In this document: positions 2,872 to 26,600 of the stretch, in pieces
Position numbering within the stretch: position 1 is the stretch's first letter
How the letters are laid out: each line of letters starts with the position of its first letter
NCBI GenBank assembly: GCA_018064885.1
Contig: JAGHUI010000063.1
Coordinates: 1 to 40,528, forward strand
Direction of reading: 5' to 3'
Origin: Candidatus Minthosoma equi
GTDB lineage: Bacteria; Bacteroidota; Bacteroidia; Bacteroidales; Bacteroidaceae
Length of the DNA: 40,528 bases
Position numbers and translations under genes: made by a program
Notes under the pieces: model-generated
Databases searched by the model: none
Seen by the model: only the letters and a program-made list of their open reading frames with translations
What the model was told of the DNA's origin: nothing

Positions 2872-4275
2872 TTACTTTACGAATGATTTTGTCATATCTT
2901 TGATGATATCTAATGTACTCTTGTCAACGGAGAACACAGAGTTGAGTCCTTGTTCCTCCTGAGCAGGATCGCACACATAATCATCGTATGGCTGCCAGAT
3001 GACGTGCTTCACATTTGCGCTGCCGCCCCATCCCCAGAAGTTGCAGCCAGCAATCTTGCCTGAGTCGCGAATGATTGAGAACACATATTTATAATAAGCA
3101 TCGCGTCCCTTTGTTGATGAGCCAGGAGTAAAGAGGAAACGGTCGCGTGGATAGCCAAACTCTTCAAGAACAACTGGACGACCTGCCTTGCTCATCACAG
3201 CGTATGCCGCATCGATGTAAGCAAGCGTTGAATCGCATGCTGCAGGAACCATATCAACTATTGGATCAGGAGCATCTTCGCTGATAGTCTTCTCAGAATC
3301 ATAGTTTTGGTTGAACTTGCCCAGCCATCCCCAGTTGTTTGGCCAAATATGAATACATGCATAATCTATATTTGGAAGAGTGTGGATGGCATTGAAAAGT
3401 TCCATATCATCCTCACATCCATGCATTCCTTCGCTACCAGTTGTGATAAGGTGATTAGGATCGAGAGAACGGATAAGAGTTGACTGCTCGTCAATCCATT
3501 CAACGAACTTTGCCTTATGGAGAGAATCGTTGACAAAGCAGCGAGGCTCGTTGGCAATCTCCCATGACATGATGGCAGGAGATTCAATGTATGGCTTGCC
3601 TGTGATAGTATTTGTGCGTGACACAATGAATTTCACATGGTTAGCAGCCAATGCTTTGGCAGAATCATTAAGCATGAAGTTGCCTGCATACTGCATATAC
3701 TCCCACCATCCCTCGAGGCTTGGAACTGGGGTTTTGTCGAAATGCTTAACAAGACGTCCATCAGTATCTGGTGTGCCTTTGTCGTCACTTGAATACACAT
3801 CGCCAGAGAATCCAACCCAATCAAGATATGCGCCATAACCGCCACTCCATTCCCAAGCATTATTGAAATAGAGAACAGCCTTCATGTCACGCTTCTCAAG
3901 TTCTGCCATAAGATAGTCAAGACCAGCAAGAATGGTATCGTTGTAAACACCTGGCTCAAGCTGAAGTTTAGGACCAATATGGCTTGGGATGCCTTCACGT
4001 CCATCACCGCCGACAAGCACTCGAACATTATCAATGCCAACAGCTTTCATATCATCAAGTTCCTTGACAAGACGCTCACGGTTTCCGCCCCTGCCTTCGC
4101 TGCCAAGAATGGCACCATACCAGAAATTAGCACCTACATAGCGATACTCATTATCGCCAATGAAAAACTTACCATCCTTAACTGTGACGAATGGAGTCTC
4201 TGTTTTTGTAGCACATGATGCCAAACCCATGATAAGGGCGCATGCTACACTGAAAATTATTGCATACTTTTTCAT
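2872..4275 (-). CDS. GH5 (subfamily 7-like) endo-beta-1,4-mannanase, lipoprotein
   Basis: Predicted outer-membrane-anchored endo-mannanase cutting mannan, glucomannan or galactomannan backbones. There are 467 residues with a lipobox LASC (Cys21). The TIM barrel begins near residue 30. The acid/base Glu is in WEIANEPR (E243) and the nucleophile in VLEEFGYPRD (E372). The pattern GANFWYGA near residue 48 and the long barrel loops are typical of GH5 subfamily 7 mannanases. Its ATG overlaps the stop of the upstream esterase gene by one base (TAATG), suggesting translational coupling. It sits between an acetylesterase and a GH94 phosphorylase, as expected for acetylated glucomannan breakdown. Another GH5 subfamily is possible but less likely. 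Confidence 0.85.
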   Translation of the reverse strand: MKKYAIIFSVACALIMGLASCATKTETPFVTVKDGKFFIGDNEYRYVGANFWYGAILGSEGRGGNRERLVKELDDMKAVGIDNVRVLVGGDGREGIPSHIGPKLQLEPGVYNDTILAGLDYLMAELEKRDMKAVLYFNNAWEWSGGYGAYLDWVGFSGDVYSSDDKGTPDTDGRLVKHFDKTPVPSLEGWWEYMQYAGNFMLNDSAKALAANHVKFIVSRTNTITGKPYIESPAIMSWEIANEPRCFVNDSLHKAKFVEWIDEQSTLIRSLDPNHLITTGSEGMHGCEDDMELFNAIHTLPNIDYACIHIWPNNWGWLGKFNQNYDSEKTISEDAPDPIVDMVPAACDSTLAYIDAAYAVMSKAGRPVVLEEFGYPRDRFLFTPGSSTKGRDAYYKYVFSIIRDSGKIAGCNFWGWGGSANVKHVIWQPYDDYVCDPAQEEQGLNSVFSVDKSTLDIIKDMTKSFVK

Positions 4276-5936: not shown

Positions 5937-5937
5937 G

Positions 5938-6882
5938 TCAAACTATCTCTTTCTTCTTGTGGAACTTATCTTTATCCTTTATGGAAGACTCATTCTTCAC
6001 ATAGTTTCCTGTTCTGTCTTTACGATGGTGATAGTTTTCACGGAATTGCGTTGGCGTACAGTTTTTCTTTTTCTTGAAAATCCTGTTGAAATTGCTGACA
6101 TTATTAAAACCGCAATCGTAGCAAATCTCAACAATAGACATGGCACTATCTGCCAATTTTCTTGAAGCATGTCCGAGACGCACGTCAATGATGTATTCCG
6201 AAAGACTCTTGCCAGTCCTGAGTTTGAAGAAACGAGAGAAAGACGTCGGAGTCATGCTGACCAAATCGGACAAAACATTAAGACGGATCTCATCACGATA
6301 ATGCTGGTCAATGTATTCTGCAACCTTACGGATTCTTCGGCTGTCAGGAAGAGGAGTGGTATAAGCGAATGAATTGCTTGACAATGTATGACATTCGGAC
6401 AGCAAAGAAAGTTCGAAAAGAATCTCATAAAGCTTCAGCACTCGGTAAAAACCTGCCTGAGTATTGAAAATCTCCATAATCTTATCCTTCATCGCCTCGC
6501 ATGCAGACTGGTCGAACGAGATACCTCGCTTCGCATTTTCCATCAGCTTGCGAAGACTATCCATCTGCGTCTTCTTCAAAAGGCTGTCACTAAACAAGTT
6601 AGCAGGAAACTGAATCATCAGCTCATGCACATCCTTCAGCTGGCACTCATGCTGTTCCCAACCATGCTCCAAGCCAGCACCAATCAGCACAAGGTCATAT
6701 TTCTGCAATACCTCAATGCTGTCACCGACAATGCGTTTTGCGCCTGTGCCGTTCTCGATGAAATTGAGTTCCAATTCATTATGCTTGTGCAAAGGATAGT
6801 TGAAGCTATCTTTCACTCTCTCTGCCAAATAGAAGCAATCGTTCTCTGACAATGGGGTGATTTCGGTAATTACATCATTCAT
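5938..6882 (-). CDS. AraC-family transcriptional regulator
   Basis: A DNA-binding regulator of 314 residues. The N-terminal half (about 15-100) looks like a sugar-sensing cupin (HKHNELELNFIENGTG near 32-47). The C-terminal AraC domain has two helix-turn-helix units: about 185-235 (LSDLVSMTPTSFSRFFKLRTG) and about 237-285, with the family signature IVEICYDCGFNNVSNFNRIFKK. The tail after residue 285 is rich in Lys and Arg. It lies 57 bp after the GH2-like gene with no promoter box seen in the gap, so it is probably cotranscribed with that gene. It is followed after 145 bp by the mannanase operon on the same strand. The likely role is control of this operon and/or its own; that is inferred from position alone. 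Confidence 0.88.
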   Translation of the reverse strand: MNDVITEITPLSENDCFYLAERVKDSFNYPLHKHNELELNFIENGTGAKRIVGDSIEVLQKYDLVLIGAGLEHGWEQHECQLKDVHELMIQFPANLFSDSLLKKTQMDSLRKLMENAKRGISFDQSACEAMKDKIMEIFNTQAGFYRVLKLYEILFELSLLSECHTLSSNSFAYTTPLPDSRRIRKVAEYIDQHYRDEIRLNVLSDLVSMTPTSFSRFFKLRTGKSLSEYIIDVRLGHASRKLADSAMSIVEICYDCGFNNVSNFNRIFKKKKNCTPTQFRENYHHRKDRTGNYVKNESSIKDKDKFHKKKEIV

Positions 6883-9890: not shown

Positions 9891-9944
9891 GCAAATTTGA
9901 AGTAAAATTCTTTCCAAATTCATCATTTTGTGGAAGAATAAAGT

Positions 9945-9952
9945 TACATTTG
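9945..9952 (+). promoter_or_regulatory. -7 promoter box of lipoprotein L3
   Basis: TACATTTG fits TAnnTTTG. It lies downstream of the first in-frame ATG (9928) and 17 bp before the ATG at 9970. This supports 9970 as the true start, with a very short leader. The upstream -33 element is not convincing. Confidence 0.5.
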
Positions 9953-9969
9953 CAAAAATTATTGATTTC

Positions 9970-11454
9970 ATGAAAGAAAATAAGAAACTTACATCCTGCA
10001 ATAAAGGGACTCACACATTATATTTACTCATGTTGCTTGCCGCATGCATCATCATGTCGGCATGCTCTACTTCGCCCGAAAATATAACGAAGGTTGAAGA
10101 GGATGCGCCGATGTATCCTGACTATACAGAAATAACTATTCCTGTAAATATCGCTCCGTTGAATTTTCTGCTGAGAGATGATGCAGAAAGAGTGTGCGTG
10201 TATGTCAACGACGAGGAATTTTACAACAATTCTGGCAATGAAGTCGTCTTTGACATTGATGCCTGGAAAACGCTTATGGACGAGAATGTTGGCAAAAGCA
10301 TTTCAGTTAGAATAGTTGCGAAATACAAGGACAAGTGGAAGGAATACAAGAACTTCACATGGAAGGTCGTGGATGACATTGTTGATCCTTATCTCACCTA
10401 TCGTCTCATAGAACCAGACTATGAGGTTTTCAGCAATCTCGTTCTGCAAGAAAGATGCGTCGAGAACTTTGACACGGAGAACTTTTCCGACTATGGTGTA
10501 GTTGGAAACAAATGTATGAATTGCCACACTTATTCGTCACAAGATCCCAACACTTCCATGTTCTACATAAGAGGCGAGAATGGCGGTGCGATGCTGAACT
10601 TCAACGGAAAACTGGAGAAACTGAATCTGAAACGTGACGACATGGCAAGCGGAAGCGTGTATTTCGGTTTCTCGCCATCAAGCAAATACATTGTCTTCTC
10701 CACAAACATCATCATTCCAGCCTTTCACTCAGCCGAAAGCAAGCGTATGGAAGTATTTGATACAAAGAGCGATGTGTATGTTGCCGACCTGACAAACCAC
10801 AAGTTCATTGACAGTCCTCTGCTCAGCGACAGCACACGATTGGAGACTTTCCCAACCTTCTCTCCTGATGGCAAATACATCTACTATTGCACAGCAATCA
10901 CACCAGATTCGCTGAGTGGAATCACTTCCATGAAGTACAGCCTATGCCGAATAAACTTTAATGAGAAAACTGGCACAATAGGAGAAACCGTTGACACCAT
11001 ATATAATGCTGCAACACAGGGAAAGAGCGTGTGTCATCCTCGCATCAGTCCTGACGGAAAATTCCTCGTTTATACCGTAGCAGATTATGGAACCTTCCCT
11101 ATCTGGCATCGTGAGTCAGATCTGCAAATGATGAATCTTGAGACTGGTGATATCAGCAAGATGGAAAATGTAAACTCCTCACTCTCTGACACATATCATT
11201 CATGGTCATCAAACTCCCGCTGGCTCGTCTTTGCCTCAAAGAGGGATGACGGATTGTATGGAAAGCCTTACTACACATATATAGATAAAAAAGGAGTGTG
11301 CTCAAAGCCTTTTGTCTTGCCTCAAGCACACCCTACATTCTATGATAACTGTCTGAAGTCTTTCAATGCTCCCGAGCAGGGAAAAGGGAAATTGCCATTC
11401 TCTGTTACTGACGTACAGAAAGCGATGTCCTCCGCTCCGACAGAATTCCGTTAG
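9970..11454 (+). CDS. Lipoprotein with one CxxCH motif and TolB/PD40-like propeller (L3)
   Basis: Function unknown. From the ATG at 9970 it has 494 residues, with a long N-region and lipobox IMSAC (Cys32). The ATG at 9928 is rejected because a promoter box lies after it. An N-terminal domain carries YPDYTEITIPVNIAPLNF, shared with the two paralogues L1 and L2. A single CMNCH (C182-H186) is followed by an RG.NGG turn. The rest (about 200-480) is a TolB/PD40-like beta-propeller with repeats such as TFSPDGKYIYY and RISPDGKFLVY and a final SNSRWLVFASKRDDG blade. It converges on the M/L operon and its last 50 bp overlap the end of L2. If the CxxCH binds heme it would be a small c-type cytochrome domain on a membrane-anchored propeller. 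No membrane-protein partner is adjacent on its own strand. Confidence 0.8.
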   Translation: MKENKKLTSCNKGTHTLYLLMLLAACIIMSACSTSPENITKVEEDAPMYPDYTEITIPVNIAPLNFLLRDDAERVCVYVNDEEFYNNSGNEVVFDIDAWKTLMDENVGKSISVRIVAKYKDKWKEYKNFTWKVVDDIVDPYLTYRLIEPDYEVFSNLVLQERCVENFDTENFSDYGVVGNKCMNCHTYSSQDPNTSMFYIRGENGGAMLNFNGKLEKLNLKRDDMASGSVYFGFSPSSKYIVFSTNIIIPAFHSAESKRMEVFDTKSDVYVADLTNHKFIDSPLLSDSTRLETFPTFSPDGKYIYYCTAITPDSLSGITSMKYSLCRINFNEKTGTIGETVDTIYNAATQGKSVCHPRISPDGKFLVYTVADYGTFPIWHRESDLQMMNLETGDISKMENVNSSLSDTYHSWSSNSRWLVFASKRDDGLYGKPYYTYIDKKGVCSKPFVLPQAHPTFYDNCLKSFNAPEQGKGKLPFSVTDVQKAMSSAPTEFR

Positions 11455-12877
11455 CAGCCATTCGTGAATCAATATCCACTTTTTCTTTTGTGAAATCAGG
11501 CACATTATAACTGTACATCAATCGGTCATAATAGTGTCGCGGATTCTTTTGAGGCAATAGGAAAGGTTTGGTAGCCCTACCCTTTTCATCAATTGAAGAA
11601 AGGTACAATCGAGTGTAAAGACCGTCGCCTCGGCGGGACGAGAACACGAACCAATGACTATTGTCACTCCAATTATGATAAGACTCTGTGTCTTTAGTAT
11701 TCACCTCTGCTATTGCACGCTTCTCACCTGTCTTCAAGTTCAGCAGCCACAAATCAGCCTCCTTATGCCAGATTGGGAATGTTCCGTAATCGGCAAGAGT
11801 GTACATGATATACTTTCCATCGTATGAAGGTTTTGGGAATGCTATACTCATGCTGTCACTTTCTGCATCTATAAGAGTATCAATCTTTTCTCCAAATGAA
11901 GCCTTCTCCGCATCAAAAGAGATAGAATAAAGATTGTAACGTACACGCCTTGTGTCGCCAGGATACTGGCGAAGAACTGTAGAACAGAAATACATTGTCT
12001 TTCCGTCTGGCGAGAATGCAGGATAAGTCTCGTTAAAATCCTTCTTCATAAACACAGGAGAAAGTATCAATTCATTCGTCTTTGTGTCAAGCACCTGAAG
12101 ATCACTCTCATGGTCAAACACTTCAATACGCTCATCCTTCACAACGTGGAATCCCTGACGAGTTGTGTTGGTTGAGAAAGCGAGATATCTTCCGTCAGGA
12201 TGCCAATAAGGATACACACAAAGTCCAAGAGTCTTATCTGTCTTGGTATCAAGGATATCCATTTCACCATCTTTCTGAATAACAGAAGCTCCATGATTGC
12301 CGCGAACATGGAAAACAAACTCCTTTGGGTTAGTGCGATTGCTGGTGTGGCAATTAACGCAATTGCCAGGCACACGAGTATTCTGTATTATCTCATATTC
12401 ATCAAAATTGCTCAAGTCACGCTGATAAAGTCCCATCTGACTGAACACTTCATATCCCGGCGCAACACGACGGTAGGTAAGTCCCCATTCCTCAAGATCA
12501 TATTTGCTGACAAACATTCTAAAATCTTGATACTGATACCATTTACCATCCTTTTCCACGCAAACAGTAAACGAAAGTTCCCCATCCTTATTCTGCTCCA
12601 CAAGTGAATGCCACTCATCCAAAGGCATGTCAACCGCATCACCCTGAGCATGCAGTTCCCCACCCTTGCTGCCTTTCACCACAACATCCACGCAACTGAC
12701 ATCTTTGCCAATGACATTGAAGTTCATTGGTGCAATACCCACAGGAATTGTAACCTCGGAATAATCAGGATAGATGACAGGAGGCTTGTCCAGCAACTGC
12801 GGATTCTCTACAGACTTGGAGCATGCAGAGAGAACAAAAACCGTGGTCAATATATATAATAATGTATTAAGTCTCAT
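11405..12877 (-). CDS. Lipoprotein with one CxxCH motif and TolB/PD40-like propeller (L2)
   Basis: Function unknown; 490 residues. Lipobox VLSAC (Cys19) is followed by YPDYSEVTIPVGIAPMNF, then a small N-terminal domain to about residue 140. A single CVNCHTSN motif (C173-H177) is followed by FHVRGNHGA. A TolB/PD40-like propeller (about 200-470) includes YPAFSPDGKTMYF and SDNSHWFVFSSRRGDG. Its start overlaps the stop of membrane protein M2 as ATGA, so the two are probably translated together. It is the last gene of the M1-L1-M2-L2 operon. It aligns along its whole length with L1, including the C-terminal FTK-KVD-D-R segment, so the stop and the 50-bp antisense overlap with L3 look real. No terminator is visible in the overlap. 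Confidence 0.82.
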   Translation of the reverse strand: MRLNTLLYILTTVFVLSACSKSVENPQLLDKPPVIYPDYSEVTIPVGIAPMNFNVIGKDVSCVDVVVKGSKGGELHAQGDAVDMPLDEWHSLVEQNKDGELSFTVCVEKDGKWYQYQDFRMFVSKYDLEEWGLTYRRVAPGYEVFSQMGLYQRDLSNFDEYEIIQNTRVPGNCVNCHTSNRTNPKEFVFHVRGNHGASVIQKDGEMDILDTKTDKTLGLCVYPYWHPDGRYLAFSTNTTRQGFHVVKDERIEVFDHESDLQVLDTKTNELILSPVFMKKDFNETYPAFSPDGKTMYFCSTVLRQYPGDTRRVRYNLYSISFDAEKASFGEKIDTLIDAESDSMSIAFPKPSYDGKYIMYTLADYGTFPIWHKEADLWLLNLKTGEKRAIAEVNTKDTESYHNWSDNSHWFVFSSRRGDGLYTRLYLSSIDEKGRATKPFLLPQKNPRHYYDRLMYSYNVPDFTKEKVDIDSRMAANGILSERRTSLSVRQ

Positions 12878-14430
12878 TGATTCTTTTGTTTTTTAAGTGT
12901 CTCATCCACAAAATTCCTATAGATCAAATATTTCTGCTGATTGCCCTCAAGCTGAGGAAGGAAAAGAAGGTATTGCATTGCAACAACATTCTTGCTGTTT
13001 TGTACAACAAGCTGTCCCATGATTTTATCTATTTCCTGTTCGCTGAAAAGGAAATCCTTAGTCAATCGGCATTTGCGCAGATAACCATATACAGGATGTT
13101 CGTTGATCGCTTTTTCATTGCCCAGCAAAGCAATGGTTTCGTTTGCCCAATTCCTGTAGTACATTGTCTTTTGTAGAATACGCAAATACTTCAGCGACAC
13201 CTTATATTGTCCATTGATCAGATTTGTCTCAGCAAGTCTTTTAATAATTCGAGCGCTCTTGCCATTATCTGGGATAGCCTCCATTGCTTCGAAATCAAAG
13301 CGTTGCGCTGTATTCACCATACCAGTCTGATAATAAATCTCAGCCGTCATCAGCGATGACTCAAAATTCTTGTTGAACACAGGAAATGCACCTTGCCAAC
13401 CATTCTGGAAGAACTGGAATGCACGTTGCTCGTTCAACTGTCCTGTCATGGCGAGAGCAAGATTCAAAGATGAGACCGTAAGTGGAGTATCTGGAGTTTT
13501 CTTTTCTGCTTTTTCTATTATCTCGTTCCATTTCTGCTGACGTACAAGAAGGTCATAATCAAGCACTTCATAAGAAGCAGAAAGATAGTTTGCAGGAACA
13601 GCAATAACTGCTAAGCTAACAACTCCAGCAAGCACTCCCGCAAACACAAAGCGTGAAGTCTTCCCCTCTTTCTGTTCTGGCAATACTGAAATGACGATTG
13701 GAATGATAACAAAGGCCGCCATTACAATATACTGCATTACAGCAACAACATCTACAACATAGTTATAACCAATGCCATAGAAGATTCTAGCAACAGGATA
13801 AGGCACAAACGCAGCACTTGCAAGCATACAAGCAACTGACAACACAATTGCAACAGCAGAAATTAAGAAGTTTCTATTTGCAAGTATCTCTTTTATAGCA
13901 ATATATATTGCAAACATCAAGACAGCAGGTCCTGTGATCCAGTACACAAATGGAACTGCTATTGCCACATATATATATTTCGCAACTGAAGAAGATTTCT
14001 CCGGATATACGACCATGCACGTCATTGCTATAAGCATGGAAATAACAAAAGATAGACGCACGTTGATGTCTCCCATATACATCCATAGAAGGATGACAGG
14101 TATATAAGAAAGCAGGTACCATGCATCCGAAACTTTCTGTTTCTTAACAAGTTTCCATGTTGCCAGCTGCAACAGCACATAGACACAAGCGATTATAACA
14201 GCTCCTACCTGTACGACATTGTAGAACTGCACAAGAAATTCACTGACGTAACGCGCTATGCCTCCTGGAACAGCCAATCGTTCAAAGAACATTTCTGAGT
14301 CGAAAAGAAAAAGCTGAAGCTGTTCCTGATAAACCAGACCTGAAGAATATTTAAATCCCCAGAAGCACCATACAACAACAGCAAACATCGCTGCCAACAG
14401 CACCTTCCAATATCTTTGTATTATATTCAT
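12874..14430 (-). CDS. Polytopic membrane protein with helical-repeat C-terminus (M2, DUF6057-like)
   Basis: Function unknown; 518 residues. There are eight or nine predicted membrane helices (about 9-26, 73-92, 105-119, 126-142, 151-178 possibly split, 187-208, 228-250, 262-281). The long loop after helix 1 contains YQEQLQLFLF and a GG-A-YVSEFLVQFYN segment. YWITGP lies in the fifth hydrophobic stretch. The C-terminal 235 residues are soluble, helical and TPR-like (NLALAMTGQL, GKSARIIKRLAETN, LLGNE). M1 shares all of these marks. Four-base ATGA overlaps join it to L1 upstream and L2 downstream. The layout (helix, acidic extracytoplasmic loop, many helices, soluble tail) resembles GT-C membrane glycosyltransferases, but I see no decisive motif and the resemblance is only a hypothesis. 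Confidence 0.78.
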   Translation of the reverse strand: MNIIQRYWKVLLAAMFAVVVWCFWGFKYSSGLVYQEQLQLFLFDSEMFFERLAVPGGIARYVSEFLVQFYNVVQVGAVIIACVYVLLQLATWKLVKKQKVSDAWYLLSYIPVILLWMYMGDINVRLSFVISMLIAMTCMVVYPEKSSSVAKYIYVAIAVPFVYWITGPAVLMFAIYIAIKEILANRNFLISAVAIVLSVACMLASAAFVPYPVARIFYGIGYNYVVDVVAVMQYIVMAAFVIIPIVISVLPEQKEGKTSRFVFAGVLAGVVSLAVIAVPANYLSASYEVLDYDLLVRQQKWNEIIEKAEKKTPDTPLTVSSLNLALAMTGQLNEQRAFQFFQNGWQGAFPVFNKNFESSLMTAEIYYQTGMVNTAQRFDFEAMEAIPDNGKSARIIKRLAETNLINGQYKVSLKYLRILQKTMYYRNWANETIALLGNEKAINEHPVYGYLRKCRLTKDFLFSEQEIDKIMGQLVVQNSKNVVAMQYLLFLPQLEGNQQKYLIYRNFVDETLKKQKNQ

Positions 14431-15890
14431 CTGACTTTCACATCTATGCGTTCACCATCCAGACATTGCTTGCCAGCAAGACGAGCATCAAAATCCACCT
14501 TGTCTTTTGTGAAGTCTGGACAATTATATGAATCAAAAAGTTCGTTATAGAATTTGCGAGGATTTTTCTGAGGCAAGAGGAAGGGCTTTGTCACCTTGCC
14601 TGCATCATCTATGCTCGCAATATAAGCTTTGTTATACATGCCGTCACCTCGGCGTGAGGAGAATACAAACCAATGACTGTTGCTGCTCCAATTGTGGAAG
14701 CTATCCACATCATCACTGTTCACCTCAGTCAAAGCACGATGCTTACCTGTCTTCACATTCATAATCCACAAATCTGCTTCTTTATGATTTACAGGGAAAT
14801 TGCCGAAATCCGAAACACCATACATCAACCACTTGCCATCGTATGATGGACGCGGATACGTGAAACTCTTGTCCAGCTCTTGAGCATTTAGGAGAGTGTC
14901 AACATGATCACCGTATGTGCCTGTCTTTTCGTCAAAAGAAATCTGGCAGAGACTATATTTTGCCTTCTCATATTCGAGAGGAATGTTACAATACTTTGAA
15001 GAACAATAATAGAGAGTCTTTCCATCAGGAGAAAACACAGGATAGGTTTCAAAGTCTTTTGTCTGCAAAAGAGTATCGAGTATAAGCTCATTTGTTCTTG
15101 TGTCAATGACAAGCACATCACTCATTGTATCGAACACTTCAATGCGCTTCTCTGCTCTCACAAAGAAAAGCTGATGGATAGAGTTGATTGACGAAGCGAT
15201 ATAGTTGCCCGAAGGATGCCAATAGCTGTATCCGCAATTAGCTTTCGTGCTGTCTGTCTTCGTATTGAGCCATGTCTGGTCAGTACCATTTTGAATCACA
15301 GTGCCTCCTTTGTCGCCACGCAGATGCATAAGGAACTGATCTGCACGGCATTGGTTAGCTGTGTGGCAATTCATGCATTGTCCTGGAACAGCAGATTCCT
15401 GAAGAATGGCATATTCATCGAAAGTGTGAATGTCACGCTGATAAATGCCTATATTGCCACCCACCTCATAACCTGGCGGTATTCTGCGGTAAGTGAGTCC
15501 GAAATCGTCAAGATGATACTTGCTGACATGCATGGCAAATGGCTGATACTGTGTCCATTTACCATCTTCCAGCATGCACACGGTGAAAGTTAGATCACCG
15601 CCTTCATTCTGCTCTGTCAGCTCATGCCATTCGTCAATATCGAAGTCAGCAAACTCGCCCTGAACGTGCATTTCCCCACCCTTGCTGCCTTTAACCACAA
15701 CATCTATAATTTCCACCTTATCACTCTGGGCATTGAAATCCATCGGAGCTATATCAACAGGAATTGTAACATCTATATAGTCAGGAAATATCGCTGGCTG
15801 CTGATTTACAACCTGCGGATTCTCAACCGTTTTCATGCACGAAGCGAGCATGAGCATAAGTGTCAAATATATAGGAAAGAGTTTCTTCAT
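14427..15890 (-). CDS. Lipoprotein with one CxxCH motif and TolB/PD40-like propeller (L1)
   Basis: Function unknown; 487 residues. Lipobox LASC (Cys18), then MKTVENPQVV and FPDYIDVTIPVDIAPMDF, which match L2 nearly position for position. A single CMNCHTAN (C172-H176) is followed by an extra Cys (C181) and HLRGDKGG. The propeller (about 200-470) has YPVFSPDGKTLYY and SSNSHWFVFSSRRGDG. No Met or His beyond the CxxCH His is obviously shared by all three paralogues as a distal heme ligand. The gene starts 15 bp after M1 and its stop overlaps the start of M2 (ATGA). Paired order M1-L1 and M2-L2 suggests that each lipoprotein works with the membrane protein encoded just upstream. Confidence 0.82.
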   Translation of the reverse strand: MKKLFPIYLTLMLMLASCMKTVENPQVVNQQPAIFPDYIDVTIPVDIAPMDFNAQSDKVEIIDVVVKGSKGGEMHVQGEFADFDIDEWHELTEQNEGGDLTFTVCMLEDGKWTQYQPFAMHVSKYHLDDFGLTYRRIPPGYEVGGNIGIYQRDIHTFDEYAILQESAVPGQCMNCHTANQCRADQFLMHLRGDKGGTVIQNGTDQTWLNTKTDSTKANCGYSYWHPSGNYIASSINSIHQLFFVRAEKRIEVFDTMSDVLVIDTRTNELILDTLLQTKDFETYPVFSPDGKTLYYCSSKYCNIPLEYEKAKYSLCQISFDEKTGTYGDHVDTLLNAQELDKSFTYPRPSYDGKWLMYGVSDFGNFPVNHKEADLWIMNVKTGKHRALTEVNSDDVDSFHNWSSNSHWFVFSSRRGDGMYNKAYIASIDDAGKVTKPFLLPQKNPRKFYNELFDSYNCPDFTKDKVDFDARLAGKQCLDGERIDVKVR

Positions 15891-15905
15891 CTTCTTTTTT
15901 CTTTA

Positions 15906-17639
15906 TTAATGCAATGACTCTGACTGTTCCATGTCATTATGCATTTGCTGGGCAGATGCAGACAGGCGTCTTGCATATTCTGCAAATGGAGACCCAGGAA
16001 CATTGCCGTGATTTTGTATGCAGTTCCATGCATCGGCATAGCCTGCTGGCATGGAAGGATAACCGCCATACTGCTGCGCCCAACTCAGGTACTGGGCAAA
16101 ACTCTTCATGTCGCCAATAAGAAGAAGCTGACCAAGAAAATACTCCAAAGCCATCTTGTTCTCTGGATTACTGATGAAAAGCTGACCAAGAACCTTATCA
16201 AGTTCGCCATAATTATAAAGAAAATCCGTTTTGAAGCCAAACTTTCTCAATCTACCCCACTGAGGATGCGCATCAATCCATGCTTCATTGCCAAGATAAG
16301 TCTTTGCGTCTTTTGCCCAATCACGATAAAAGAGGCTCTTTTCCAGAAGATCAAGATTCTTTCGTGCCACTTCATACCTTCCGCTGATGATGCAGCATTC
16401 TGCAATGCGCTTAGTAAAACGTCCGCTCTTCTTTCCATTCATTATGCTTTCCTGAATATCAGAAGCATAACGCATAGATTCGTTCACCATTCCAAGTCGG
16501 TAGAAAGCCTCCATAGTAGGCAAATTTGAAGTGTTGTCACGAACCATACCCATGATGAGTGCATCTGTGCCACTCTGAAAGAAGGAGAACATACGGTTGC
16601 TCAACTGCCCTGTCATGGAAAGAGAAAGATTGACGCTCTCCGACCAGAAATTCACAGGAACTACAGTTTTCTCTGCATTTGCAAGAACATCGTTCCATCG
16701 TTCATTCCTAATGAGATAATCCTGATTTATCAGCTCATATTTTTCTTTCTCGAACCCTTTTATTACACCCTGAAATGAAATAATAGCTGCAACGGCAGTA
16801 ACAGTCACAACACATACACGTCGCATCATTTTTGGAGAGACAGATGATGTTGTCCACTTTCTAAACGACATAACAAAAGCAAACACGGCAATGATGGCAG
16901 GAATGATGATCTGCAATTCCTCCACATAATTGAAGCGGCGATAATAGTTTGTGCCACAGATTGCTGTAAGCAATGGCCATTGTGTGAGCACAAAACGAAC
17001 TGCTAACAGATGAACAATCAACATGATTGCAGGAGCAACAGTCTTTTTCCATCCATTAGAGTATATGGCACGAAGCGCGGCATAAAGCCATGCCATTGGT
17101 CCAGCAAGCCAATAGAGGGCAGGAACAACAACAATGTCTGCCCACCACAAAGAGGTCTGTGATTTTCTTTCTACAAATTGCAGGAGTAAAAATGTTGACA
17201 TGGAAAGAATGATAGCCATCACATAGCTCAGCAGCACACATTCATCTCCCATAAATCCAAGCAGCAACGCTACAGGAATTAAAGCAAAAGAAGCAGCCTC
17301 AAATCGTCCAGGTGCATCAGAATCAACACTTTGGGATAGTTTGTATTCATCTATAGTATGCACTGCAAGAACATAGAATACAGCATATATCAACCCCAAG
17401 ACTGCAGCTCCAAGCCATTCGATATAATAGAACTGAGTAAAGAACTCACCCAGCCAATCGGCAAAACCGCCAATGATGCGAACATCATTGACGAAATAAT
17501 CGCCTGTCCACAGAAACAGCTGATTCTGTTCCTGATAGGACAATGCCTGTGGATAGCCTAACCACCAGAACAGGAACACACCCACTCCAAGCAAAGCTCC
17601 CACAAAACAATCAATATGTTTTGTCAACAAATTCTTCAC
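15906..17639 (-). CDS. Polytopic membrane protein with helical-repeat C-terminus (M1, DUF6057-like)
   Basis: Function unknown; 577 residues. The start is GTG at 17639 (complement CAC at 17637-17639), preceded by a near-perfect Shine-Dalgarno. About eight membrane helices are seen (11-29, 75-94, 114-130, 136-155, 166-186, 203-222, 242-260, 274-292). The loop after helix 1 has YQEQNQLFLW and GGFADWLGEFFTQFYY. YWLAGP is in the fifth hydrophobic stretch. The soluble C-terminus (about 300-577) is TPR-like with MTGQL, FYRLGMVN, RIAECCIISGRYEVA and LGNEAWIDAHPQWG. It is paralogous to M2 but carries about 40 extra C-terminal residues. With eight helices both ends would be cytoplasmic; with nine the tail would be periplasmic. 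It follows the HIT gene after 23 bp, so the two are probably cotranscribed. Confidence 0.78.
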   Translation of the reverse strand: MKNLLTKHIDCFVGALLGVGVFLFWWLGYPQALSYQEQNQLFLWTGDYFVNDVRIIGGFADWLGEFFTQFYYIEWLGAAVLGLIYAVFYVLAVHTIDEYKLSQSVDSDAPGRFEAASFALIPVALLLGFMGDECVLLSYVMAIILSMSTFLLLQFVERKSQTSLWWADIVVVPALYWLAGPMAWLYAALRAIYSNGWKKTVAPAIMLIVHLLAVRFVLTQWPLLTAICGTNYYRRFNYVEELQIIIPAIIAVFAFVMSFRKWTTSSVSPKMMRRVCVVTVTAVAAIISFQGVIKGFEKEKYELINQDYLIRNERWNDVLANAEKTVVPVNFWSESVNLSLSMTGQLSNRMFSFFQSGTDALIMGMVRDNTSNLPTMEAFYRLGMVNESMRYASDIQESIMNGKKSGRFTKRIAECCIISGRYEVARKNLDLLEKSLFYRDWAKDAKTYLGNEAWIDAHPQWGRLRKFGFKTDFLYNYGELDKVLGQLFISNPENKMALEYFLGQLLLIGDMKSFAQYLSWAQQYGGYPSMPAGYADAWNCIQNHGNVPGSPFAEYARRLSASAQQMHNDMEQSESLH

Positions 17640-17662: not shown

Positions 17663-18082
17663 TTAGAGGACAGCCTTGATAGCATCAATCATCTGCTGAT
17701 ACTCCTCATCAGAAAGATACACCTTGCCAGGATTCATCTGGAACGTGCCACCATAATCTGGACCATCCTCATACTTTGGAGCAAGATGGAAATGTAGATG
17801 AGAAAGCTTATCGCTATATGCTCCATAATTGATTTTCACAGGATTAAATGCCTTCTGCATTGCGCGAGTAACCTTGCACACATCAGCCATGAACGCATTG
17901 CGCTCCTCATCGCTCAACTCATTCAAATCATTGACATGGCCATTGTAAGCCACAAGGCACCTGCCCCTGTAACTCTGTTCCTTGAAAAGGAAAGCACGTG
18001 AAACACTCAAATCAGCAAACTTAATCATAAGATTGCCATAGCTATTTTTGCAATACAAGCACTCATCTGGATTGCTATACAT
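17663..18082 (-). CDS. HIT-family nucleotide hydrolase/transferase
   Basis: A cytoplasmic protein of 139 residues in the histidine-triad superfamily, which hydrolyses AMP-linked or dinucleoside polyphosphate substrates. The triad reads HLHFHL (H95, H97, H99), with H97 the expected nucleophile. An N-terminal CLYC pair (C8, C11) and later His residues could bind zinc as in many HIT proteins. NGHV (48-51) is the usual upstream HIT segment. It has a consensus promoter 45-75 bp upstream and is followed after 23 bp by M1, making it the likely first gene of the HIT-M1-L1-M2-L2 operon. The true substrate is unknown. Confidence 0.85.
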   Translation of the reverse strand: MYSNPDECLYCKNSYGNLMIKFADLSVSRAFLFKEQSYRGRCLVAYNGHVNDLNELSDEERNAFMADVCKVTRAMQKAFNPVKINYGAYSDKLSHLHFHLAPKYEDGPDYGGTFQMNPGKVYLSDEEYQQMIDAIKAVL

Positions 18083-19508: not shown

Positions 19509-20156
19509 TTAATACTCGTCTGCAGAAACCTCAACAATGGTACCGTCGGGCATTCTCTTTTTATGTGTCAGTGGGAACATTTCTCCTAAGAAATCTTTGA
19601 GTGGCCCATCAGGAAGTTCTTTTGCCATGTTACGAGTAACATTCTTGTAATCAACATGAATACTATCTGCCTTATGCTTAATAGAATTTGCTGTAATAGA
19701 ATCACCACTATCAGAAGCTGCATGGTATAACATAATCAATGAATGATACTTTTCATTACGGATTTCTGTAATATCCTTCCATTGTTGCAATTTATCGTTG
19801 TTTTCCGTTCCACGTGCAGAACTGATAGAATCAATTGTTACATATATATCACCAGGTTCTTCAACAACAAGCAAATCCTCAAGTCCCATACGAAAATGGA
19901 AATCCATACGGATGATTGCCATCATGTGTTTTCGAGTAACAAATTCAAATTTACAATTCTCAACATAGCAAGAATCAACACCAATGCTATCTCGAATACT
20001 CTTATCAAGAGCAATCATGTAGATACATTTACCATTGTACTTGTCGTCAGGCAAAGTTCCATGCACACGACATTCACCAACTTCATTTGATGATTTATCA
20101 CATGACGCTAAAAGCAATAGAAAAACACTTGCAAAAAGAAATAATCCACGTTTCAT
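19509..20156 (-). CDS. Lipoprotein with DUF4369-like domain
   Basis: Function unknown; 215 residues from the ATG at 20156, giving MKRGLFLFASVFLLLLASC with lipobox LASC. An ATG at 20198 would start inside the terminator stem and is rejected. The region CRVHGTLPDDKYNGKCIYM to FEFV (about residues 28-75) resembles the DUF4369 domain that usually precedes a thioredoxin-like domain in Bacteroidetes. Here no thioredoxin CxxC follows; instead there is a charged helical region of about 100 residues. The start codon lies 9 bp after the T-tract of an intrinsic terminator that follows the second SusC/D unit, and no promoter box is seen between them. Expression probably depends on read-through, or on a promoter I cannot recognise. 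A role in the xylan locus is not supported by sequence. Confidence 0.7.
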   Translation of the reverse strand: MKRGLFLFASVFLLLLASCDKSSNEVGECRVHGTLPDDKYNGKCIYMIALDKSIRDSIGVDSCYVENCKFEFVTRKHMMAIIRMDFHFRMGLEDLLVVEEPGDIYVTIDSISSARGTENNDKLQQWKDITEIRNEKYHSLIMLYHAASDSGDSITANSIKHKADSIHVDYKNVTRNMAKELPDGPLKDFLGEMFPLTHKKRMPDGTIVEVSADEY

Positions 20157-20164
20157 AAAACACA

Positions 20165-20200
20165 TAAAAAAAACCTTGCAGAACAGGATGCCCTGCAAGG
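20165..20200 (-). terminator. Intrinsic terminator of the second SusC/SusD unit, abutting the next start codon
   Basis: On the minus strand CCTTGCAG (20193-20200) pairs with CTGCAAGG (20174-20181), followed by an uninterrupted T-run (A-tract 20165-20173). It lies 33 bp after the glycan-binding protein stop and only 9 bp before the next ATG. Confidence 0.85.
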
Positions 20201-20232: not shown

Positions 20233-21726
20233 TTAATACTTCTTCTTGAATGACCAGTATGTACCTTCTGACCAACCAGAGAATGCACCATTGTCAGGGT
20301 AAGTAAGTACAAGAGAGTTAGGACCGTAAGAATAGATCTGGAAGTCTGTTACGTATGCAGCAGAACCACGATTGCTAGCAGCATTTATCTCGTATGGGAA
20401 GAGAACACCAGGTGCTTTTGTACGGAATGAACCAAGCTTCCATCCATCAGCAGTTGACCAATCAATCTCATACTCAGAAGAACGAATTACCTTACCATCC
20501 TTATCGTAAGATATAATCTTGCCATCAGCAGAGAGTGTCATGTAAGCATCGTTACTTTCATCGCCCATAACAACACCCTCAACAGAATGATTAAGTTGAT
20601 CTGCAAGCTGAGAAGCATCATCAACACCCCACCACTTGAATGGAGCAAGTGAAGCATCACGCCAAGAACCATCAGCACCGAAATTACCCCAGCATGTACC
20701 AAGTTGATTGAAATCCCATGTATAAGAAACAGATGTATTCTCAATGTCTGGAGCAATCTGCTTAGCAGCAAATGCCCAATATGTACCTTCTGACCAACCA
20801 GAGAATGCACCATTGTCAGGATAGTAAAGTGTCATACGCTCATGATCAAGGTTGAATATCTGATAGTCTGTAACTTCTGCTTGTGTACCACGATTCTTAT
20901 TAGCATTAATCTCAAATGGGAACATAATTGGAGACTTAAATGGCTGATTTGCATCAGTCTGTGTATGAAGTACACCAATAGAGAATGCACCTGAGTTTGG
21001 ATCGTAGTTCTCAACAGAGAATGAACCCTTAACAATTACATTGCCTTCACCATCGTAAGTAACGATAGTGCCATCCTCCTTGAATACCATATGAGCATTG
21101 TTGTTTTCCCAACCTGCAACGATACCTGTTGTTGAGTGCTCAAGCTGGTCAGCAAGCTGAGAAGCATCATCAACACCCCACCACTTGAAGTCACCAAGAG
21201 AAGCACCACGCCAAGAACCATCAGCACCAAAGTTACCCCAGCATGCACCAAGCTGTGTGAAGTCCCAATACCACTCCTTTGTAGCAGGAGCATCTCCGTT
21301 GCCGCAAAGAAGAGCAATTTCAGGCTTAAGTTCTGATTCAACAAATACATTGAATTTTGTTGATGTTTCTGCTACAGTATTATCTGCATTTACAATGCGA
21401 ATGAATACTTGCTGCTCTGTTGGATTACCACGAGTTGGCAAGATGCTGAAAGATCCAGAAGGTCCATGAGCAAGAAGGTTTTCAGAACCATCTGCCTTGA
21501 AATTATAAAAACAAACATCTGTAGCAGGAGATGTAGTATATGAGAAATAGTTTCCATCAGCAGCAGGCTTGCCATCTGCATCAGTCTGTGTGATTTGAAC
21601 AAGATCAAGAATCTTGTCAGCGTTTGCAATTGAATAGCTGAGCGAACCACCCTCCTCTACAGGATCGCATGAGGAGAAGAGTCCCATTGTAGCTAAGGCT
21701 GCAAACAATATAAATGATTTCTTCAT
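20233..21726 (-). CDS. Surface glycan-binding lipoprotein with a duplicated C-terminal domain (SusE/F-position)
   Basis: A predicted outer-surface carbohydrate-binding protein of 497 residues. Lipobox FSSC (Cys20) is followed by DPVEEGG, a probable surface-export signal. An immunoglobulin/PKD-like N-terminal domain occupies about 25-130. Two closely similar domains follow, about 152-320 and 335-495. Each has WDF-QLG-CWGNFGADGSWR, KWWGVDDASQLADQL and ends PDNGAFSGWSEGTYW. The many exposed Trp and Tyr residues suit sugar stacking. It is the third gene of the second SusC-SusD unit, 27 bp after the SusD gene, where such proteins deliver glycans to the SusC/D importer. The ligand is inferred to be xylan or oligoxylan from the neighbouring locus. 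I do not recognise the repeated domain as a named CBM family. Confidence 0.8.
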   Translation of the reverse strand: MKKSFILFAALATMGLFSSCDPVEEGGSLSYSIANADKILDLVQITQTDADGKPAADGNYFSYTTSPATDVCFYNFKADGSENLLAHGPSGSFSILPTRGNPTEQQVFIRIVNADNTVAETSTKFNVFVESELKPEIALLCGNGDAPATKEWYWDFTQLGACWGNFGADGSWRGASLGDFKWWGVDDASQLADQLEHSTTGIVAGWENNNAHMVFKEDGTIVTYDGEGNVIVKGSFSVENYDPNSGAFSIGVLHTQTDANQPFKSPIMFPFEINANKNRGTQAEVTDYQIFNLDHERMTLYYPDNGAFSGWSEGTYWAFAAKQIAPDIENTSVSYTWDFNQLGTCWGNFGADGSWRDASLAPFKWWGVDDASQLADQLNHSVEGVVMGDESNDAYMTLSADGKIISYDKDGKVIRSSEYEIDWSTADGWKLGSFRTKAPGVLFPYEINAASNRGSAAYVTDFQIYSYGPNSLVLTYPDNGAFSGWSEGTYWSFKKKY

Positions 21727-21753: not shown

Positions 21754-23577
21754 TTAGTAAACAGGACTTGATGAAATGTTCTTATCAGTATTCTCTGCAG
21801 TCCAACCTGGATTCTGAGTAAGTACATTAGGATTAGCAATAATGTTAATCTGAGCTTCAGGCATCTGGAGGAAGCCGTCAGTAGCAGCATAACGCTTAGC
21901 CCATGAAGATGTAGCATGCTTCATTGTTGACCAATGATCCACATAGAACACCTTTGTACCTTCCTGTGCCTGAAGAGCCTTAGCTGCCTCACAATTCTCA
22001 CCACCGTTCTTTCCAGACCAGCGACGGAGGTCGTTGAAGCGGAGACCTTCACCCATAAACTCATGGAGACGTTCTCTCTTGATGTTATCCCAAGAATAAG
22101 CCATATCAGGATTAAGACCTGCACGCCTACGTACTTCCTTCATCCATGTGTTTGTACCTGTAAGCTCAGAATGCATAAGGTAAATATCAGCGAGACGCAT
22201 GAGAACAAGGTCTGCAAAGTGGTCACCCTGCATTGAGTTACCATTGCTCTGAGTGTTAGAGCCACGAACAATACCCCACCAAGTTGCCACAGAACTGAAG
22301 TCACATTCTTTGCTTGTTACAGCTATAACCTTCTTGTTGTAAAGACCTGTCTCTTCTGAAGCATCAGATACATAATCGAATGCACCAATTTCTGTACGGT
22401 CATCACACTCAAGGATAGTTGCCTTCTTACGAACATCGCCAGCTTCCCATCCATCAAGCATGTTAGAGTTGAATACACCTTGACCCCAACCTTCACCGAA
22501 TGGGACTGAAGCTGCACGACCATTGTTATCAGATCCTGTACGGAGTGAGCAATAAAGAGATGTCTGGTTGATAAAGCCCATCTGTACGTTACCATTCCAT
22601 GAACCAAAGTTACCAAACTGAATCTGGAAAATCTCTTCCTGATTTCCGTTGCCAGCCCAAAATCTATTATCTTTAGCAAGATCCTTTACGAATGCATAAT
22701 CAGGAGCTGTGTACTTGTTTGTGTACTGCCAAAGGAGACGGTAATCTTTGATGAGATCATAACGCTTATTACCGCATACATAGTCAAGAGCTGCTACAAC
22801 CTGATCATATGAAAGCTGTTTAGTTGCACCCTCCTGAGAAGGAAGATCGATGTTCTTTTTATCATCGTCGAGACCAGCCTTAGCAAGCTCACCTACCTGC
22901 TTGTAGAAACCTTCGTAGAACATATAGGCACGAGCAAGATAACCAGCTGCAGCATCCTTTGTTGCATGACCATCACCCATCTGAGTGTAGTTTGAAGGCA
23001 TGAGAGTGTAAGCAGAAAGGAAGTCTGCAAGAATGTGAGGATAAATTACAGTTTCAGCATCCTGCTGTGGACAAGGAGTTGGAGCTGATGCTTGCCAATA
23101 TGCAGGAATATTTCCAAAGAACTGTGATCCCCAAAGATAGTAGAGACCGCGAAGGAAGTATGCCTCACCAAGTGTCTGGTCACGCTGCTCCTTGCTAGGC
23201 CAATTAAAGTTATCAATAGAATAGATAACAGAATTAGCACGAGCAACACCAGCATAAGTTGCAGAATACGCCATATCGAAAAGTGCAGGCTTGTTTGATA
23301 CAAGGTGACCAATAGCAGAACACTCTACGTCACCAGTACCACCAGCACCATTACACTCGTCAGACATGATATTATATACAAGAACAGGACTCTGCAGAGG
23401 GTCTCTTGTGAACTGATTCAATACAGAATAAGCACCAGTCAAAGTTGACTGAACATCAGCCAGCTGTGCAGGGAAGTTTCCTGTATTTGCTTCTGTATAG
23501 TTTTCAGAGTCGAGGTAGCTGTCGCAAGATGAGAGTGCAAGAGCAGCCACAACACCCATTAAAAATATCTTTTTCAT
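21754..23577 (-). CDS. SusD/RagB-family glycan-binding lipoprotein
   Basis: An outer-membrane lipoprotein of 607 residues acting as the hinged lid of its SusC partner. Lipobox LSSC (Cys18) is followed by DSYLDSENYTEANTGNF. The SusD N-terminal domain has ADVQSTLTGAYSVL near 42-55 and the TPR-like ALGEAYFLRGLYYLWGSQFFG region near 136-157. The C-terminal family marks are the VLMRLADIYLMHSE and ERLHEFMGEGLRFNDLRRW segments. It lies 31 bp after SusC and 27 bp before the duplicated-domain lipoprotein. In Prevotella xylan loci two such pairs (XusA/B and XusC/D) occur together; which this one corresponds to cannot be decided here. Confidence 0.9.
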   Translation of the reverse strand: MKKIFLMGVVAALALSSCDSYLDSENYTEANTGNFPAQLADVQSTLTGAYSVLNQFTRDPLQSPVLVYNIMSDECNGAGGTGDVECSAIGHLVSNKPALFDMAYSATYAGVARANSVIYSIDNFNWPSKEQRDQTLGEAYFLRGLYYLWGSQFFGNIPAYWQASAPTPCPQQDAETVIYPHILADFLSAYTLMPSNYTQMGDGHATKDAAAGYLARAYMFYEGFYKQVGELAKAGLDDDKKNIDLPSQEGATKQLSYDQVVAALDYVCGNKRYDLIKDYRLLWQYTNKYTAPDYAFVKDLAKDNRFWAGNGNQEEIFQIQFGNFGSWNGNVQMGFINQTSLYCSLRTGSDNNGRAASVPFGEGWGQGVFNSNMLDGWEAGDVRKKATILECDDRTEIGAFDYVSDASEETGLYNKKVIAVTSKECDFSSVATWWGIVRGSNTQSNGNSMQGDHFADLVLMRLADIYLMHSELTGTNTWMKEVRRRAGLNPDMAYSWDNIKRERLHEFMGEGLRFNDLRRWSGKNGGENCEAAKALQAQEGTKVFYVDHWSTMKHATSSWAKRYAATDGFLQMPEAQINIIANPNVLTQNPGWTAENTDKNISSSPVY

Positions 23578-23608: not shown

Positions 23609-26600
23609 TTAGAACTTGATACTTGCACCGAGGATGAAAGTACGAGCTGATGGGTAAAGACCCTGATCGATACCACGAACCCATGATGCGTTACCGCCAC
23701 CACCGTTTGCACCAACTTCAGGATCAACACCAGTATAACCAGTGAATGTCATGAGATTCTGAGCCTGGAAATAGAGACGGAGCTGGCTGAATGGAGATGA
23801 CTTCCAGATGTTCTTGAAATCATAACCAAGAGTGATATTCTGAATCTTGAGGAAGTCAGCATCCTGCATGTAGCGAGTAGAAACCCACTGATTGTTTTCA
23901 CCACCAATTGTCAAACGAGGCTGATCATTGCTAGTGCCTTCACCATGCCAACGACCAAATACATCTGTAGTGTATGTCTCGTATGGGCTACCAAGACAAG
24001 CTGTACGATAGCTCTGCATTACCTGCATGCCAAATGCACCGTATGCCTGGATACCAAAGTCAAAGCCCTTATATTCAAAACCAAGGTTAATACCGAGAGT
24101 TACATCTGGGTGAGGGTTTCCAATTTCGTGGCAGTCACCTTCTGTTGTAATCTGACCATCTTTGTTGAAGTCGTCCCAGATACAATCACCAGGAACAGCA
24201 TTTGGAAGAACAGCCTTACCTTCAGCACGAGCAGCATCAATCTGTGCCTGATTCTGCCAGATTCCACTGTAAGACATACCAGAGAAGTAACCTACTGGAT
24301 GACCTACCTTACAAAGAGACACATAACCTGGCATATTGTTCTGGAAAAGACCTGAAGTTACATCATCACCAAGGAGACCAGAAGCTGTGCCAAGGCGAGT
24401 TACCTTATTCTTGTTTGTAGCTACATTTACATTTGCATGATAGTTGAAGTCCTTGCCAATACGATCACGCCAAGAGAGAGCAATTTCAAAACCATAGTTC
24501 TTGATGTCACCGCCATTAACGTATGGAGCTTCAACAACACCATAAACATCAGAAATAGGAGCCTGAACAAGCCAGTCCTTTGTCTTCTTGTTATACCAGT
24601 CGAATGTCAAACCGAGACGACCACCAAGGAAGCGAGCATCAAAACCGAGGTCAATCTGCTCTGAAGTTTCCCATGTAACATCTTCGTTGGCTGCATTCTT
24701 AGTATAAGCACCTGGTGTATAACCAGTATTGCTTACAGTCTGGTCATCAGAACTTCCAAACTTGTATGCGAAGTCAGCATAATCTGTTGGAGAATAACCA
24801 ATGTTAGAAAGATAGTAGAAATTGTCAATCTGGCAGTTACCATTCTGTCCCCAAGAAGCACGAATCTTGAACTGATCAAGCCAAGAAGATGTGTTTTCCA
24901 TGAAAGACTCACGTGCGATATCCCAACCAGCAGAGAATGAAGGGAAAGTACCCCAACGCTTACCCTTTGCAAAGTTTGAAGAACCATCTGTACGGAGAGT
25001 TACTGTAGCCATATACTTCTCATCATAGTTCCAGTTTGCACGACCAAAGAATGATGCAAGAGATGAATCTGTGTCACCCCATCCCTTGAAACCGTCAACA
25101 TTTTCTTTTGCAAAGTTATTAGCCCACATATACTTGAAACCCTTTGTAAGAAGAGTTCCTGCTTCATCTGCATTTACAGACATGTTAAGTTCAAGGTTAT
25201 TATTCCATGCACTATTCTCAATAGATTGACCAACGAGAACATCTACATTATGCTTTCCAAGGTTCTGGAATGTATATGAGATTGTGTTCTCGAATGCAAT
25301 GCTTGAACTCTGATACTGACCATTGTTGAGCTTGTAAACTTTTGGATTATTTGTGCTACTCTCAGAGAATGGTACTGAAGAAGAACGATTGTTAGATGCA
25401 CTATAACCTGTATTCAACTGACCACGATACTTGAGTCCCTTGATTGGCTCAACAACCCAGAAGAATGTTGCACCTACACCAAAATCACGATAACGATTGA
25501 TAGAGTTGTACTCACCACCATAGAATCCTTGAAGTGGATTGAGGAACAAGTTTGGTGTATAAATACCATTACCATCTACATCGTAACTTGTAAGTTCACC
25601 CTTTGCATTGTATGCAGGAACAAGTGGAGAAGCCTTGTAAGCGTTCTGCATGATGCTCCAGTAACCATTACCTTCTGCAAGATCATGGCTTGAATGATAC
25701 CAGTAAGAAATGTTCTCACCGATAGTGATGATATCTCGACCTTTTTCGTTACGGAGAAGAACATGCTCAGAATTGATACGGCCACCGTAGCGCTTATAAT
25801 CAGAAGCGTTGCTGCCACCAAGAATACCTTCATTAGTGCTATAGTTAATGCTCATAGAGAACTTAGAGCGATCAGTACCACCTGTAAGACTTACAGCATG
25901 TGAAGTCTGAACAGCATTCTTATTACGATACTCATTGAACCAGTCCTGTCCATCCCATCCGTTAGGAATGTTTGTGTACTGTTCATTATCATCTGACACG
26001 TATGTTCCCATGATCTTCTGATAAATTTCCTTGTTCATGAGAGAACTCCAGTCTGTTGCTGTTCCGAAAGTGTTGAAGTTTGTCTCATTGACAATCTTCA
26101 TGTAATCCTTTGCACCGAGAGTAGCAGGACGCTTGTATGGATTGCTCCATCCTACAAAGCCATCATACTGGAGAGAAACCTTACCAGCCTTACCCTGCTT
26201 TGTTGTAACAAGGATTACACCATTTGCAGCGCGCGCACCATAGATAGCAGCAGATGCAGCGTCCTTGAGGACATCGATGCTCTCGATATCGTTAGGATTA
26301 AGACCGTTGAGACCGTTATCAGCAGTACCAGCGTTTACACCATCGATGATGAGAAGTGGAGAAGATTCACCGATAGTACCTACACCACGGATGTTAACCT
26401 TAAAGCCCTTACCTGGCTGGGTAGAAGACTGTGTGATGTTAACACCAGGAGTAGTTGCCTGCATAGCAGTAAGCGCATTTGTTGTGTTAAGCTTAGCGAC
26501 ATCCTCGCCCTTAACCTGAACAGTTGCACCAGTGACCAACTTCTTCTTCATTGTACCATAACCAACAACAACGACGTCGTCGAGAAGCTCGTCGTCAGAC

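Follow-up and report, generated by a model that had tools for sequence, protein, structure and literature searches.

What does a membrane protein do together with a lipoprotein when the two are encoded side by side, several times over, in a single genome? The question is raised by a run of genes at positions 9970 to 17639 of contig JAGHUI010000063.1 of Candidatus Minthosoma equi, of which a stretch of 40,528 nucleotides was analysed (the window). In this run a membrane protein of family DUF6057 (M) alternates with a propeller lipoprotein that carries a CxNCH motif (L). Our analysis suggests, with a probability of roughly 0.55, that M and L are two cognate halves of one inner-membrane and periplasmic module of the envelope, which is often found in the glycan-uptake loci built around SusC and SusD (SusCD) and is run as several pairs.

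The M and L genes

M1 (15906..17639, GTG start), L1 (14427..15890), M2 (12874..14430) and L2 (11405..12877) follow one another on the minus strand, and L3 (9970..11454, plus strand) converges on them, overlapping L2 tail to tail by 50 bp. All five open reading frames lie where the original prediction, a reading of the sequence alone, had placed them, and the tight M1-L1-M2-L2 operon that it described is exact, with a gap of 15 bp between M1 and L1 and overlaps of 4 bp between L1 and M2 and between M2 and L2. Its claim that each M resembles the other M and each L the other Ls was borne out as well, with identities of 31% for M1/M2, 55% for L1/L2 and 39% for L1/L3. M1 and M2 are clear members of Pfam DUF6057 (PF19529), for which Pfam states no function, and at 408.3 and 466.7 bits they exceed the cut-off of 29.8 bits by far; our literature searches found no paper naming DUF6057 or PF19529. 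The structural model of M1 (predicted local distance difference test, pLDDT, 94.1) has eight long hydrophobic helices followed by a helical TPR-like tail, which is the architecture that had been proposed for M.

L had been described as a CxxCH/propeller lipoprotein, and this too agrees with what was found. PD40 repeats were matched by Pfam in L1, L2 and L3, none of which reaches a full-length family cut-off in Pfam or NCBIfam, and the model of L1 (pLDDT 93.3) consists of a strand domain and a propeller, with TolB as its best Foldseek match (E 6e-13). All 153 complete L from 79 loci have the CxxCH motif, as do all 44 of another, partly overlapping set to which the window belongs; among 67 aligned L the form CxNCH is invariant except for a serine at the third place in two. 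E281, S342 and W401 are invariant in the same 67 proteins and H399 is kept in 66. As these conserved residues appear to fall at like places of the PD40 blades, the mouth of the propeller may be the working site of L. The protein resembles TolB of the Tol-Pal system in having a PD40 propeller behind an N-terminal domain, but the three L score only 35.0, 28.7 and 25.4 bits against a TIGR02800 cut-off of 343, they have a lipid anchor and the CxNCH motif, and they neighbour M rather than Pal or TolA. The M and L profiles, run against the sequences of the PDB, returned weak PD40 and membrane matches only, and PHROGs, a phage search with M2 and Foldseek against viral models gave nothing informative.

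M and L form a near-obligate pair

M and L are a near-obligate pair. They were counted in 61 genomes of the window's family, its own (G000) included, each of which was searched for DUF6057 and for L (E≤1e-20), split matches being merged before counting. Of the 99 L, 94 have an M no more than 400 bp away, and the other five are L3 of the window, three partial genes and one L in genome G005 that is separated from an M by 5.6 kb, in which a SusC-SusD pair lies. Counted from the other partner, 98 of 131 M have an L inside 400 bp; the remaining 33 comprise five long M, of which two adjoin a further M with an L of its own, two fragments in genome G006 and at least 26 short or partial matches, the counts of short M being lower bounds. 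These short or partial M sit mostly in frames of about 380-430 amino acids, as does the lone gene on contig C31 of the window's genome (L017:4889-6127), a short DUF6057 type of about 400 amino acids that does not adjoin an L. Long M were not usually found without L. The two families also occur together: the best DUF6057 match is at E≤1.2e-38 in all 38 L-bearing genomes, and among the 23 L-less genomes DUF6057 is absent from 16 and weak in 7 (E 2.9e-16 or worse).

A second collection, of 79 loci, comes from the 80 best matches to an alignment with L1 at its head, and favours window-type L. In it L lies within 500 bp of M in 154 of 160 cases, on the same strand in all 154 and with a median gap of 0, and its host titles include Prevotella-type organisms, Bacteroides, Tannerellaceae, Dysgonamonadaceae, Prolixibacteraceae and other Bacteroidales. 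Some of its loci and some of those in our first collection may be drawn from the same genomes. A sample of the whole phylum (296 genomes, L at E≤1e-20) gave five genomes with L, the window's own among them; two of the five lie outside the class and carry full-length L with an adjacent M, and another two, both of one further family, possess no more than distant relatives of L that are fused to TPRs. Adjacency, co-occurrence and the partner fidelity described below all agree that M and L belong together, as had been predicted. A different order, M-L-M, is found on contig C24 of the window's genome (L014:4893-9996) and also in two congeneric genomes; by eye we take the genes before it to be methylmalonyl-CoA mutase and the gene after it to be peptidase-like.

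Old parallel pairs and a pair split over two contigs

The nearest relative of the window that was found, locus L080 of a metagenome-assembled genome from goat reticulum, has the run S-X-D-M-L-M-L followed by a convergent L-M (X and D are lipoproteins introduced in the next section). Its three L (5731-7200, 8750-10210 and 10167-11603) are 71, 71 and 73% identical to L1, L2 and L3, respectively, and its M at 7164-8750 is 57% identical to M2. Since the orthologues in the two genomes are closer than L1 and L2 are to each other, the pairs split before the two lineages diverged, and judged from these identities the duplication is old and the pairs are ancient paralogues. The original prediction was right in proposing duplication into several versions per cell, but a recent local event, as its wording of a tandem duplication implied, is ruled out by the separate orthologues of each pair in L080.

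Paralogous M-L pairs have diverged together. In a test of 45 loci with at least two pairs, in which the window was included with its split pair and only an L with an M directly upstream was paired (136 of 157 L), the nearest M and the nearest L in another locus were partners of each other there in 4397 of 4928 comparisons (89%), whereas shuffling the partners within loci 200 times gave a concordance of 42%, with a maximum of 52%.

L3, which had been called an orphan, lacks a partner in the window but not in the genome: its cognate M (M3) is found on contig C100 (G000:C100:20693-22192, the same gene as L016:5694-7193), so that the loss of its partner, which was also considered, is overturned. 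The M beside the L3 orthologue in L080 (L080:11606-13084) is 59% identical to the lone M of C100 and 24% identical to M2, and in the concordance test M3 and L3 behaved as partners in 42 of 44 loci. The two genes seem to have been separated by rearrangement, the alternative being misassembly of this 114-contig genome. With matched paralogous pairs, one of them split over two contigs, both partner specificity and function are directly testable by gene removal.

The operon is the tail of a SusCD run

A run of SusC, SusD, X and DUF4369 genes, which recurs in relatives, ends in M1-L1-M2-L2. Here the original prediction had recognised the M-L module itself and overlooked the run upstream of it. The run begins on the minus strand with a SusC-like TonB-dependent transporter (23609..26902; TIGR04056, 855.6 bits, cut-off 368) and a SusD-like protein (21754..23577, minus strand; PF07980, 74.2 bits, cut-off 23.1), followed on the same strand by X (20233..21726), a lipoprotein with a surface-type signal and of no known family, for which Pfam and NCBIfam were searched with no match, and by D, a DUF4369 lipoprotein (19509..20198; PF14289, 29.5 bits, cut-off 25). 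Among the 44 of 77 loci of the second collection that have M and at least 3.5 kb of upstream DNA, SusD is present in 34, SusC in 28, X in 31 and D in 31. The window run is like known SusC-SusD loci in being headed by SusC, SusD and a surface-type lipoprotein, but it ends in the DUF4369 lipoprotein and the M-L pairs and has no constant glycoside hydrolase (GH). A HIT-domain gene (17663-18082) and a Kinase-PolyVal gene (18198-18800) stand between D and M1 and look inserted, as L080 has only a few bases at this place.

An acidic export signal marks the surface lipoproteins of Bacteroidetes, according to PMC5080379. At least two acidic residues at positions +2 to +7 are carried by 41 of the 42 X and 31 of the 33 SusD scored, but by 13 of 144 L and 8 of 36 DUF4369 lipoproteins, a simple lipobox rule deciding which proteins were scored and setting aside 54 of 198 L (L1 included), 5 of 47 X, 14 of 50 DUF4369 and 17 of 50 SusD rows. 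As most L are without the acidic surface signal, L is probably periplasmic and faces that compartment. Propeller lipoproteins of the BtuG type, which are present in the Foldseek list of L1, are linked to a SusCD-like importer; they are surface lipoproteins, however, and differ in this from most L, which moreover pair with a membrane protein. Literature searches on propeller lipoproteins, SusD and mannan gave no such pair among the matches listed. SusCD loci are among the most thoroughly studied gene sets of the gut, yet our searches found no paper that names this module, which 38 of the 61 genomes sampled from the family carry, often in several copies.

Linkage to beta-mannan genes

The linkage of M-L to genes for beta-mannan is real but not exclusive. 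On contig C100, M3 lies 4.4 kb before a GH130 gene like mannosylglucose phosphorylase and near a GH26 gene, with a gene in between that by eye we take to be a GH43. In P. distasonis a DUF4369-M-L-M-L run is followed by GH26, GH130, a transporter of the major facilitator superfamily (MFS), an epimerase and an esterase, and its glycosidases cluster with the GH26 and GH130 of C100. The set GH26-GH130-MFS-epimerase is that of Bacteroides beta-mannan loci, whose pathway is given in PMC13276840. In the available part of this paper M-L genes are not named, and two hypothetical proteins are listed.

Homologues of the GH26 or GH130 flank M-L in 6 of 106 other loci. When the GH130 genes of L-bearing genomes were split by hand into two types by score band, after inspection of the list, 5 of 14 of the mannosylglucose type lay within 10 kb of an M or L against 0.30 expected, and none of the 15 others did; without sorting, about 0.6 of the 29 genes would be expected so near and 5 were. 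The test had been prompted by the C100 gene, which is among the five; without it the count is 4 of 13. A plasmid of B. fragilis carries SusD-M-L followed by what we take, by eye, to be pieces of GH3 genes and a sugar transporter.

The window itself contains a neighbouring cluster (316-6882). It holds, besides an esterase gene, a GH94 (316..2820, minus strand) whose nearest solved relatives are cellobiose phosphorylases and of which a 74% identical homologue lies beside an M-L pair in locus L119, a GH5 (2872..4275, minus strand) whose nearest solved relatives are Man5A and exo-beta-1,4-mannosidase (1uuq, E 5.9e-81; 4lyp), and an AraC-type regulator (5938..6882, minus strand). Homologues of the regulator, 52-59% identical, adjoin M-L genes in five loci, in one of which the GH5 is also present, in an orientation unlike that of the window. 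The glycan of the window is likely to be beta-mannan or glucomannan. A strict beta-mannan role for M-L was rejected, since pairs are also found near GH3, GH31, GH43, GH115 and housekeeping genes.

Possible role of the M-L module

A possible role for the module follows from its place in these loci. The glycan would be captured by SusD and the surface lipoprotein X and enter through SusC, after which an M-L complex on the periplasmic side of the inner membrane would handle the glycan or its product. Several diverged pairs would work in parallel, every L having its own M. M would be a polytopic inner-membrane protein whose conserved residues lie in loops predicted to be extracytoplasmic; the residues conserved at 75% are mainly in the first loop (EL1), loop 3, loop 6 and the tail, with none in loops 2, 4, 5 and 7. 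The even number of helices would place the TPR tail in the cytoplasm, while a periplasmic tail is favoured by the positive charge before the last helix and by the absence of conserved residues from those four loops. Distant CxNCH propellers of 702-735 amino acids from two genomes of another family of the phylum have C-terminal TPR repeats of their own in three of three cases (L049:6175-8382, L050:2608-4716 and L051:4409-6568), which fits a contact between propeller and TPR. We would expect the role of M to be catalytic rather than one of transport. If this is true, action on the imported glycan at the inner membrane would be a step of plant-fibre use that is absent from current schemes for the rumen and the human gut.

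Several points weigh against this reading. Among 27 loci of the first collection, SusCD is present in only one of the seven with sufficient upstream DNA, beyond which SusC, SusD or X also occurs in L027, L028, L046, L052 and L056. Some pairs have housekeeping genes for neighbours, such as pfkA and meaB in P. distasonis, and no uptake locus is visible near them; others, one of them in a distant locus, adjoin GH3, and where an MFS transporter is adjacent the step left for M-L is not obvious. L occurs in 5 of 296 genomes of the phylum, so that the module is not a general component of SusCD systems. Nine of the 14 mannosylglucose-type GH130 genes are more than 10 kb from any M or L, and the available part of PMC12704710, on S. 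copri glucomannan loci, names no M-L genes. Finally, linked genes duplicate together, so that partner fidelity alone is no proof of contact.

That M and L merely travel together, with no joint function, is very improbable. Bacterial operons do co-duplicate and spread as blocks, but this pair is kept in many genomes, two of them outside the class, and away from SusCD loci as well, no L without a strong M match was seen among the 61 genomes, and L3 and M3 were both retained in one genome after their separation. M could also be an inner-membrane importer of oligosaccharides with L as its lipid-anchored periplasmic binding protein, as its eight hydrophobic helices and the position of M-L behind SusCD and X would allow; we consider this unlikely, because the conserved polar residues of M are mainly in loops and not in membrane helices, and because an MFS sugar transporter is already present in some M-L loci. 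About as unlikely is the proposal that M is a membrane glycosyltransferase of the GT-C type, or a hydrolase on a GT-C scaffold, which builds or trims a lipid-linked or surface glycan with L as its periplasmic scaffold. The layout of M is similar to that of PMT_2 and TMEM260-like proteins. Its N-terminal helix leads into a large acidic loop that contains short helices and E37 (kept in 91 of 92 sequences), and D132 (75 of 92) lies in loop 3; these may correspond to the acids in the first loops of GT-C enzymes, and TMEM260-like proteins have a TPR tail. The PMT_2 profile is moreover in register with M helices 3-6, its TKG standing opposite AGP of M. However, no structure or profile match is significant. 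Foldseek with M found no PDB entry at E≤0.001, nor any GT-C enzyme among the top 50 listed of 529, which is no proof of absence because the TPR tail was kept in the query and dominates the list; hhalign of M against GT-C families gave a probability of 2.1% at most; and 12 PMT_2 sets did not outscore 23 other membrane proteins on the membrane part (p=0.21) and barely did so on the full length (p=0.04), TMEM260 and seven reading frames judged antisense by eye lying outside this comparison. The GT-C likeness of M in the original prediction found no structural support, and the profile alignment is suggestive but not significant.

The same prediction had offered electron carriage as a role for L, and a c-type cytochrome that passes electrons between inner membrane and periplasm is a tentative alternative, for which the conservation of CxNCH speaks, CxxCH being kept in every complete L. 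Among the 38 L genomes, 33 have a CcsA-family match in a frame of at least 320 amino acids, compared with 11 of the 23 others (p=0.002, the genomes being related and not independent), and the window's genome has a long-frame CcsA-family gene with no NrfA detected, NrfA having been considered and rejected as the client that would explain this maturation gene. When any CcsA match is counted, one of them weak, the difference shrinks to 35 of 38 against 17 of 23 (p=0.07). The fused CcsBA-type gene of the window's genome adjoins a protein with two CxxCH motifs, which could explain it. Of the three L genomes without CcsA, ResB was found in G012 and not in G045 or G040, the last being 99% complete and having L with both CcsA and ResB undetected. 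The CxNCH motif is modelled, without haem, as a beta strand (residues 172-179, block pLDDT 91), and there is no histidine among the 75%-conserved residues of M. Haem on L is possible, but the modelled strand, G040 and the missing histidine of M speak against a simple electron carrier. The CcsBA-type gene and its neighbour, a lipoprotein, lie on contig C38 (L140:3672-8961), near a gene that looks to us imelysin-like by eye.

Other neighbouring genes

A gene of about 370 amino acids, like chorismatase and RidA, occurs in 16 M/L loci, in 15 of them within 700 bp (for example L047:9876-11063, L048:5347-6588 and L082:12361-13482), and in L050 it adjoins the TPR-fused relative of L. Seven such proteins were scanned, all of which fall below the curated FkbO/Hyg5 cut-off, and no match to this gene was found in the window. 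It is conceivable, though we put this forward only as a speculation, that M-L belongs to an undescribed class of trans-envelope machine in which a CxNCH propeller is joined to a TPR partner, either the tail of M or fused repeats, and sometimes to a chorismatase/RidA-like enzyme whose product may be the substrate or cofactor of the CxNCH site at the propeller mouth; such a class would have multiplied in Bacteroidales, with many of its members coupled to SusCD. When 71 flanking proteins were scanned together, the RidA family was matched in 10, GH5 and BACON in 5 each and GH3 in 3. Directly upstream of the SusCD run of the window lies a xylan-type locus (27258-38186) with GH10, a surface glycan-binding protein, SusD, SusC and GH67.

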